Shown here: piece by piece, positions 4,948-9,164 of the stretch
Position numbering within the stretch: position 1 is the first letter of the stretch
Layout of the letters: each line of letters opens with the position of its first letter
NCBI GenBank assembly: GCA_002753565.1
Contig: PEAM01000010.1
Span: forward strand, 62,001 to 126,000
Origin: Magnetococcales bacterium
GTDB taxonomy: Bacteria > Pseudomonadota > Magnetococcia > Magnetococcales > JADFYX01
Direction: 5' to 3'
Length of the DNA: 64,000 nucleotides
Notes under the pieces: model-generated
The model's input: only the letters and a program-made list of their open reading frames with translations
What the model was told of the DNA's origin: nothing
Database searches by the model: none
Made by a program: the position numbers and the translations under genes

Positions 4948-7900
4948 GTCGCCCCCCATGCGGGGGCGTGGATTGAAACTTTGTCCCAATCAACGGCCCC
5001 TTCAGAATCCCAGGTCGCCCCCCATGCGGGGGCGTGGATTGAAACTCGCTGAGCTGCGCTCTCCATGTTACGCATACCAGTCGCCCCCCATGCGGGGGCG
5101 TGGATTGAAACTTTTATCGTCCGACGGATCATCCAGCCCTCGCACAGGTCGCCCCCCATGCGGGGGCGTGGATTGAAACTGTCCCGGAAGAGCTGGCTGC
5201 TGAGATTGATAAAGTCGCCCCCCATGCGGGGGCGTGGATTGAAACAGAATCCCAGTACCAAGAATAACTCCATCTGCAAGTCGCCCCCCATGCGGGGGCG
5301 TGGATTGAAACGCCGTCTGGCTGATCCACTTCCATCTGGTAATATGTCGCCCCCCATGCGGGGGCGTGGATTGAAACACAATCTTTTCTGATTGGTCGAT
5401 CTTTTGTCACAGTCGCCCCCCATGCGGGGGCGTGGATTGAAACAGGTCGCCAAATGGCAGGCAGAAACCAAGCGGATGTCGCCCCCCATGCGGGGGCGTG
5501 GATTGAAACAGACGTACTCTCAAGGTTTGAAGTTGCGGGAGGAAAGTCGCCCCCCATGCGGGGGCGTGGATTGAAACGCCGAGTGCATGATTGCTAACGC
5601 TGCCAGGACCAGGTCGCCCCCCATGCGGGGGCGTGGATTGAAACTTATAATGTTTTTTGAGTGTATCCGCGTCAATGGTCGCCCCCCATGCGGGGGCGTG
5701 GATTGAAACTTGTCTCCCCATGAAACCGCCTTGTCTCAGTCAAGTCGCCCCCCATGCGGGGGCGTGGATTGAAACTGCATCTCGGATCATGGAGCGGAAA
5801 TGTCTCCGAGTCGCCCCCCATGCGGGGGCGTGGATTGAAACTTTTTTATGTCCGACTTTTTTATGTCCGATAAAGTCGCCCCCCATGCGGGGGCGTGGAT
5901 TGAAACTTTAAGCGATTTTTGCACCTCCCGACCACAAAGGGTCGCCCCCCATGCGGGGGCGTGGATTGAAACGACTCCCCTGCGTCGGTGTCTACAATTA
6001 CCAACTGTCGCCCCCCATGCGGGGGCGTGGATTGAAACAGCAGGGGCGCGAACAATAACATGCTGAAGCCTTGTCGCCCCCCATGCGGGGGCGTGGATTG
6101 AAACTGTCAGGTGTGGCGCATCGTCCCATCCGGCCTGCGTCGCCCCCCATGCGGGGGCGTGGATTGAAACTTATACTTCCTGTCAAGAACTGCACGCCCT
6201 TCTTGTCGCCCCCCATGCGGGGGCGTGGATTGAAACGAAGAATTAAGAGACCAATCCCGTGCATGGATTGGTCGCCCCCCATGCGGGGGCGTGGATTGAA
6301 ACTTGTCATCGGACGGGAACTGCATGTCGCTGATTCTGTCGCCCCCCATGCGGGGGCGTGGATTGAAACTATCCCCAAAGGATGACTCGCACCCGTAAAA
6401 AGGTCGCCCCCCATGCGGGGGCGTGGATTGAAACAATCAACGCCCCCCCATGGGGGGGCGATCAAGATGTCGCCCCCCATGCGGGGGCGTGGATTGAAAC
6501 AGTCAAGGTTAATAATGTGAAAAAGAACAAAGAAGTCGCCCCCCATGCGGGGGCGTGGATTGAAACATCGGACATAAAAAAGAAATCAACCTTGGAGCTT
6601 GTCGCCCCCCATGCGGGGGCGTGGATTGAAACTGACCATTGGGGTCTGGTAGGCGGTCAAACATCCGTCGCCCCCCATGCGGGGGCGTGGATTGAAACTG
6701 TGAGATGTTTGAGTTGTATTGTGGGGATTTCAGTCGCCCCCCATGCGGGGGCGTGGATTGAAACTTGCTGGGGAAAGGATGATCCCAACGCATAATAGGT
6801 CGCCCCCCATGCGGGGGCGTGGATTGAAACTGGACGAGCAGGAATGGCCAGGATCTTTAATCCCGTCGCCCCCCATGCGGGGGCGTGGATTGAAACCTTA
6901 TTTTATGGTCCGATAAACACCGTCAACATGGTCGCCCCCATGCGGGGGCGTGGATTGAAACAACTTGCTCCTTAATGGGGGCGGTTAAGCCCCCAGTCGC
7001 CCCCCATGCGGGGGCGTGGATTGAAACTGGACCTCCCGGCCACAAAGACCACGCAAACCCTGTCGCCCCCCATGCGGGGGCGTGGATTGAAACCATTTGC
7101 TGGTAGCGTATAACCCTTAAAGATGGCGTCGCCCCCCATGCGGGGGCGTGGATTGAAACTGCGATGCGTACAATTTTTGCCATAGGACAAAAAGTCGCCC
7201 CCCATGCGGGGGCGTGGATTGAAACTTTCCCATGATCAACATCAGTTATAGGGCCGTGAGGTCGCCCCCCATGCGGGGGCGTGGATTGAAACTTGGAGCT
7301 GACAACACGCAGAAGGTCATCAAGCTGTCGCCCCCCATGCGGGGGCGTGGATTGAAACTTGAGCAGGCAAGGATTGATTACGGAAGGCAGGAAGTCGCCC
7401 CCCATGCGGGGGCGTGGATTGAAACGTCTGGCCAGTTATGCAAGCCGCTGAAATGCCTCTGTCGCCCCCCATGCTGGGGCGTGGATTGAAACGCCCCAGC
7501 AGGCCCCATCATTTTGCCTGGGCTTGATGTCGCCCCCCATGCGGGGGCGTGGATTGAAACTGAGTTTTGCTCTATCAACTCCTTAACATGCGTAAGTCGC
7601 CCCCCATGCGGGGGCGTGGATTGAAACAATGTAGTGGCACCAGATGACCAACCATCAGTAAGTCGCCCCCCATGCGGGGGCGTGGATTGAAACCAGCAGT
7701 TTCAGCAACAACTGAAGCAAGAGATGCGTCGCCCCCCATGCGGGGGCGTGGATTGAAACAGCCAACCCTGATGAAAACCCGGTACCGGTGCATGTCGCCC
7801 CCCATGCGGGGGCGTGGATTGAAACCTGACGCTGCTGCTTATCTTGGTGACGCCTTACTGTCGCCCCCCATGCGGGGGCGTGGATTGAAACATTGGAGAT

Positions 7901-9164
7901 CCAGAAGATTCTGGAGCGAGGGCAGGTCGCCCCCCATGCGGGGGCGTGGATTGAAACAAGCCTGCCGGCAGCAACCAATAACTCGAAATCCGTCGCCCCC
8001 CATGCGGGGGCGTGGATTGAAACTTGAGCCATACGCTGCATCTCTGCTTGTTGGGCAGTCGCCCCCCATGCGGGGGCGTGGATTGAAACGTGCAACCAGG
8101 ACCACCGAAGACGTGCAAATTACGTCGCCCCCCATGCGGGGGCGTGGATTGAAACACCGGCCAGGTATAGCACGGTTGCCGGAGTGACTTTGTCGCCCCC
8201 CATGCGGGGGCGTGGATTGAAACAATGGTTTGACAAAGACTTTTTACAATTTGACCAAGTCGCCCCCCATGCGGGGGCGTGGATTGAAACGAGAGGAGGT
8301 TGCCCGCCCCCGGCTGCCAGTGTTAGTCGCCCCCCATGCGAGGGCGTGGATTGAAACGTGGTCGGCGGGTTAATCTTTGGTTGGCGATGATGGTCGCCCC
8401 CCATGCGGGGGCGTGGATTGAAACGGATCACCGGCTTCAAGGGGTTGCGGCTATCTATGTCGCCCCCCATGCGGGGGCGTGGATTGAAACCTCCATGACC
8501 CAAGCCGGCAAGTGGGGCTAATAAGTCGCCCCCCATGCGGGGGCGTGGATTGAAACAAGCTGTACTATTGGCGGGACAAATTCCGGAATTGTCGCCCCCC
8601 ATGCGGGGGCGTGGATTGAAACTTACCATTTGGGAGGATGAGATAGAGGCTCTTGAGCAGTCGCCCCCCATGCGGGGGCGTGGATTGAAACTGGTGCAAA
8701 ACACGTCTAGGCTGGCGGGAGAAAAAGTCGCCCCCCATGCGGGGGCGTGGATTGAAACTGTACCTCGCGCCCACAAAGGCCGCGGAAACCCTGTCGCCCC
8801 CCATGCGGGGGCGTGGATTGAAACAGCGGAATGGAATTTGACAAAACAACTGTGCGGGTCGCCCCCCATGCGGGGGCGTGGATTGAAACAGCGCGGAAAC
8901 CATGAGGGGGTTTTAATGGTGGAGTCGCCCCCCATGCGGGGGCGTGGATTGAAACCGGTCACGGGATCGGTAAATCAGCTCTCGTGAGGTCGCCCCCCAT
9001 GCGGGGGCGTGGATTGAAACGTCGCCATTGAGAAAAAGCCCCCAAAAAGCCCCCTTATGGGGTCTGTCGCCCCCCATGCGGGGGCGTGGATTGAAACTCG
9101 TTGTTCATACTGCGATTGCAGATGAACGCTGCGTCGCCCCCCATGCGGGGGCGTGGATTGAAAT
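4948..9164 (+). CRISPR. Type I-C CRISPR array, 64 repeats and 63 spacers
   Basis: The 32-base repeat begins GTCGCCCCCC, has ATGCGGGGGC in the middle and ends GATTGAAAC; the C and G runs form the hairpin cut by Cas5c. I located 64 copies by eye. All internal copies are identical except the one at 6931 (one C missing, 31 bases), at 7461 (G to T) and at 8326 (G to A). The last, at 9133, ends GAAAT and marks the trailer end. Spacers are mostly 33-37 bases, with one of 45 (9021-9065). Uniform repeats argue for recent activity. Several spacers are related to each other (see findings). Confidence 0.99.

Follow-up and report, generated by a model that had tools for sequence, protein, structure and literature searches.

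The window, by which we mean the whole 64,000-nucleotide stretch of DNA that was analysed, carries a set of type I-C cas genes followed by a CRISPR array (Table 1). The cas3 gene, an 805-aa ORF with matches to cas3_core and cas3_HD, lies directly upstream of the window, and the effector genes look intact. The adaptation genes are damaged: between window positions 3600 and 3720 a deletion of approximately 0.9 kb has joined what is left of cas4, its start, to the final 70% of cas1, which is in a different frame. Relatives carry a full, separate cas4 and a Cas1 of approximately 345 aa. We read the defect as a secondary loss in a type I-C locus. This is the only cas1 that the genome was found to contain, which probably means that the system no longer takes up spacers; unless the deletion is an assembly error, the array is probably a frozen record to which no new spacers would be added.

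Table 1. Positions of cas genes, array landmarks and the spacers discussed in the text, numbered from the first nucleotide of the window. L numbers designate the loci compared.
Feature	Position	Strand	Family match or closest homologous site
cas5c	54–761	+	TIGR01876
cas8c (csd1)	758–2740	+	TIGR01863
cas7 (csd2)	2752–3591	+	TIGR02589
cas4 remnant, about 30 N-terminal codons	3619–3708	+	
cas1 remnant lacking about 97 N-terminal codons	3699–4451	+	TIGR03640 from model position 96, below cut-off
cas2, intact	4464–4754	+	TIGR01573
Leader side of array	4755–4947		
Type I-C CRISPR array	4948–9164	+	64 repeats of 32 nt (GTCGCCCCCCATGCGGGGGCGTGGATTGAAAC), 63 spacers
Spacer 4, presumed scaffold protein (VPEELAAEIDK), tentative	5180–5213	+	L296: score 49, 9 mismatches, PAM GTC
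Spacer 10, probably adjoining TerL codons (AECMIANAART after GKSHFF), tentative	5578–5612	+	L277 GKSHFF-AECMVANASTT: protein score 45, 11 mismatches
Spacer 13, P22-like portal	5776–5809	+	L278: 6 mismatches, 5 third-position; PAM TTT
Spacer 14	5842–5874		
Spacer 15, TerL, youngest of three	5907–5940	+	L019: 5 mismatches, all third-position; TTC PAM
Spacer 23	6435–6468		
Spacer 25	6567–6600		
Spacer 26, P22-like coat protein (DHWGLVGGQTS)	6633–6666	+	L259: 8 mismatches, TTC PAM
Spacer 29, portal (DEQEWPGSLI)	6831–6864	+	L296: 10 mismatches, TTC PAM
Spacer 32, TerL, reverse frame GLRGLCGREV	7028–7061	+	L017/L120: 7 mismatches, TTC PAM
Spacer 41, coat protein (TDGWSSGATT)	7628–7661	+	L228: 7 mismatches, TTC PAM
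Spacer 44, portal	7826–7859	+	L228/L233: 8–9 mismatches, TTC PAM
Spacer 57, presumed terminase small subunit (WCKTRLGWREK)	8692–8726	+	L122 ORF 7568–7978, in frame, TTC PAM
Spacer 58, TerL, GFRGLCGREV, register of spacer 32, oldest of three	8759–8792	+	L015: 7 mismatches, all third-position; TTC PAM
Spacer 61	8956–8988		
Spacer 62	9021–9065		45 nt
Degenerate terminal repeat	9133–9164		

The 3.87-Mb genome contains no second array with this repeat, and the interior repeats are almost all identical. Spacers are usually 33–37 nt in length, the exception of note being spacer 62. The repeat end ATTGAAAC agrees with the published orientation rule for type I-C arrays (PMC8482600). Since the last repeat is degenerate and the repeats end in ATTGAAAC, the leader lies at the low-coordinate end of the array, and it follows that among the three spacers considered next, spacer 58 is the oldest, spacer 32 is intermediate and spacer 15 is the youngest.

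No other set of related spacers in the array comes close in strength to spacers 15, 32 and 58, leaving aside a match of 16 nt that links spacers 14 and 25. A sequence-only reading that preceded this analysis had proposed that the three derive from the same protein-coding gene, met in three diverged phages or plasmids, and the positions it gave for them agree exactly with our parse of the array. Its alignment was also reproduced in full. Spacers 32 and 58 are identical at 28 of 34 positions, the mismatches falling at 3, 9, 12, 21, 24 and 27, and the last 21 nt of spacer 15, offset by 13 nt, align with positions 1–21 of spacer 32 and differ from them at 3, 12 and 21 only. The pair scores within the trio are 19.0, 15.0 and 13.5, above the maximum of 12.5 reached in 20 whole-set shuffles, and therefore the likeness is not due to chance. 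In codon phase every difference is a third-position one (6/6 between spacers 32 and 58, 3/3 between 15 and 32, and 3/3 between 15 and 58).

The peptide GLRGLCGREVQ, from the reverse frame, was back-translated with nearly full codon freedom and scanned through IMG/VR. Four viral contigs matched, and every match lies in a gene for the terminase large subunit (TerL); a scan with the forward-frame pattern returned one of the same four contigs, at the same site. The matched open frame carries GGRGSGKSHFF upstream of the site and is assigned to Pfam Terminase_3 and to the PHROG terminase large subunit. The target lies approximately 20 codons past the Walker A motif of TerL. Because it is the reverse-frame peptide that matches the TerL frame, the coding strand corresponds to the reverse strand of the array; of the two candidate frames offered beforehand, GLRGLCGREV is therefore that of the gene and TSRPQRPRKP is not. 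In the gene frame, all nine spacer-spacer differences (32/58 and 15/32) are at third positions, as had been claimed. Nearly all changes had been described as silent in each frame; in the true frame the difference between spacer 32 (GLRGLCGREV) and spacer 58 (GFRGLCGREV) includes one replacement of L by F; in the forward frame the first codon reads W in spacer 32 and C in spacers 15 and 58.

The search of translated frames, carried out as the earlier reading had suggested, thus led to homologous genes of related viruses in which the gene frame matches the spacer frame, and all three sites have TTC, the usual type I-C PAM (PMC8482600, PMC5071653). Of the two sources proposed, it is phages that are targeted, and not plasmids. 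Relative to the closest homologue, mismatches at third positions account for 5/5 in spacer 15 (L019), 7/7 in spacer 58 (L015) and 5/7 in spacer 32 (L017). No exact phage match turned up for any of the spacers, the nearest TerL sites among IMG/VR and GTDB loci having 5–7 mismatches in 34, and the source alleles are absent from INPHARED and PLSDB, an absence that does not exclude their existence. At the nucleotide level, when phages and plasmids were searched by blastn, the merged 47-nt TerL site had weak partial matches, none of them convincing, and the whole array gave no convincing match to phages save for one of 28 nt in spacer 61, described below. We conclude that the array took up the same TerL site on at least three occasions, from three related but diverged phages, and assign this reading a probability of approximately 0.94.

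Taken alone, the spacers would also be compatible with a paralogous gene family inside one element in place of three phages. This is very improbable, since most of the 16 related phage records that were searched with TerL gave one match, and in the two records with more candidates these came down to a single gene in two fragments or to one reported place. A prophage of the host was considered as the source and rejected, as the genome has no Terminase_3 gene and no close TerL was found among 60 relatives. Duplication of one acquired spacer within the array followed by mutation, for which nothing speaks beyond the similarity of the spacers, is refuted by the 13-nt offset of spacer 15, whose part outside the overlap matches TerL too, and by the codon pattern of 9/9 third-position differences, and the almost complete identity of the interior repeats also counts against it.

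Among 103 distinct homologues of the site shared by spacers 32 and 58, 82 carry TTC as the PAM and 18 carry TTT. TTC is kept in most relatives because the conserved Gln-Lys codons write it on the non-coding strand, and the conservation of this PAM accounts for the identical register of the two spacers. Spacer 15 uses a second TTC, 13 nt away at Lys-Glu codons, which depends on a GAA glutamate codon and is found in 23 of the 103 homologues. A total of 82 mismatches separate ten spacers from the homologues closest to them, and 56 of these fall on codon position 3 (P = 1e-10); picking the closest protein matches favours such a pattern, and the nine spacer-spacer differences are the cleaner test.

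All spacers were translated and compared with loci around the TerL, portal and coat genes, a true open frame and a TTC PAM being required. Eight of them (15, 26, 29, 32, 41, 44, 57 and 58) scored above a threshold that was passed by 0 of 756 shuffled spacers. At least five spacers outside TerL (26, 29, 41, 44 and 57), together with spacer 13, which has the near-PAM TTT, lie in frame in genes of P22-like podophages, the portal and coat genes of these loci being matched by Pfam P22_portal and P22_CoatProtein. The ORF targeted by spacer 57 is directly upstream of TerL, and spacer 57 itself adjoins spacer 58 in the array. GGC, seen at the spacer 26 site in L074 and L017, was discarded as the PAM of that spacer, the closer homologue L259 having TTC. 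Two assignments, those of spacers 10 and 4, are tentative. Spacer 10 fits TerL codons immediately upstream of the site of the trio; its PAM codon is TTT in L277 and TTC in 47 of 81 homologues, and the spacer 4 site has a TTC PAM in L239 but 15 mismatches there. Translated matching placed at least 9 of the 63 spacers. One of the contigs compared, L074, has between its podophage portal and coat genes (positions 3418–3819) a gene that matches Pfam HlyC, the RTX toxin acyltransferase family (E = 4e-29), an unexpected passenger in a head module.

When mock spacers were drawn from related phages, 6–23% or 6–14% of them were recognised, with a concentration in head and tail genes. The share of approximately 10–13% recognised here is therefore what would be expected of an array derived in large part from this group. 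Much of the remaining array does appear to have this origin, by an estimate whose error is wide. A bias of the spacers towards the head end of the phage genome, for example near a pac site, was considered and set aside as inseparable from detection bias, the mock spacers being equally concentrated. In array order the spacers from the phage group are unclustered, with 6 neighbouring pairs against 5.2 expected, and so lend no support to multi-spacer episodes.

Why the TerL site recurs is a separate question from what it is, and two explanations compete for it. The first, neutral sampling, to which we would give just short of an even chance, holds that this phage group makes up most of what the host encounters and that TTC sites are taken up at random, TerL being prominent through nothing but detection bias, with conserved genes the only ones recognisable in retrospect. 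The mock rates, concentrated in head and tail genes, fit the recognised share. Against it, 400 simulated arrays, each of 63 TTC sites sampled uniformly from seven full or near-full related phages, contained on average 0.06 cross-phage overlapping pairs and 0 mutual triples, a test that would be too strict if the real sources are less diverged from one another than the simulated phages, as may be the case. The N-terminal region of TerL would be expected to receive 0.6–1.05 recognised spacers, and 3–4 were observed (P about 0.004–0.09, for a region chosen post hoc); this excess, post hoc and small as it is, is suggestive.

The second explanation is that partly matched old spacers trigger uptake by priming, or that spacers against a protein-constrained gene are kept longer. 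It would account for overlapping spacers in excess of the simulation, and it has a precedent in the type I-C system of Legionella, where both priming and overlap of older with newer spacers are seen (PMC5071653). The same work showed no enrichment near the priming site, and the excess in the present array is, again, post hoc and small, so that we hold this explanation tentatively, at somewhat less than an even chance. That the stretch of approximately 90 nt past the TerL Walker A motif, with three, probably four, of the 63 spacers, is a true hot spot of acquisition or retention seems unlikely to us. Were it one, the conserved codon pair would hold the PAM, and silent drift would turn each old spacer into a primer for the next.

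At the TerL site the protein is held constant while third codon positions drift, and spacers 58, 32 and 15 would have been captured in that order. Other spacers derive from the genes for the small terminase, the portal and the coat protein in this group of phages. Against the later phage the older spacer 58 carries six mismatches, one of them at position 3 beside the PAM; such a spacer would probably fail to clear that phage but could prime new uptake.

Several other spacers have features of their own. Spacers 14 and 25 have 16 nt in common in inverted orientation (CTTTTTTATGTCCGAT), and spacer 14 contains two copies of a 15-bp unit. These repeats look like iterons from the origin of a plasmid or phage; the 15-mer TCGGACATAAAAAAG was found nowhere else in the genome, nor in 50 relatives. 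Read as protein, spacer 61 gives GHGIGKSALV, which is a Walker A motif. Over 28 nt it shares 92.9% identity with a terminase-like gene in Vibrio phages 1.021/1.185 (E = 1), and its target may belong to another terminase family, unrelated to the first. In spacer 23 there is a perfect palindrome of 20 nt, CGCCCCCCCATGGGGGGGCG, which resembles the stem of the repeat itself.

The array can be read as a clean fossil record of the repeated encounters of one bacterium with one phage group. The array by itself is enough to read this record, since drift at silent sites leaves the protein unchanged, and the PAM along with it. A codon-degenerate search can find spacer targets that ordinary nucleotide matching misses, as it did at the TerL site. 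The array also brings up the possibility that primed adaptation is fed by silent drift in conserved genes.

Among named phages, the TerLs closest to that of the IMG/VR query L005 are those of EBPR podovirus 2 and Sulfitobacter phage phiGT1 (61–62% protein identity), while 69% is reached in prophages of rhizobia, for example the one in Mesorhizobium sp. Root157. They belong to the same Terminase_3 family, and the closest of them share the motif past Walker A, with a TTC-compatible site; at 61–69% identity, none of them is the source of a spacer. The nearest parallel for the array as a whole is that of Legionella pneumophila ST222, which is also of subtype I-C, has a very similar repeat (GTCGCGCCCCGTGCGGGCGCGTGGATTGAAAC) and holds several spacers against the element LME-1 (PMC5071653). 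The PAM reported there, 5'-GAA downstream, is equivalent to TTC upstream on the other strand, and in both arrays multiple spacers are directed against one kind of element and include overlapping pairs, which in Legionella consist of older and newer spacers in one array and were read as priming after escape (PMC5071653). In contrast to the Legionella case, in which a known, nearly identical element escapes via mutation of the PAM or seed, the sources here are known only as diverged homologues that differ at third positions, the targets are P22-like podophages, and a single site is covered by three overlapping spacers. For Legionella, both priming and overlap among type I-C spacers have thus already been published, and the present array is a clear new case.
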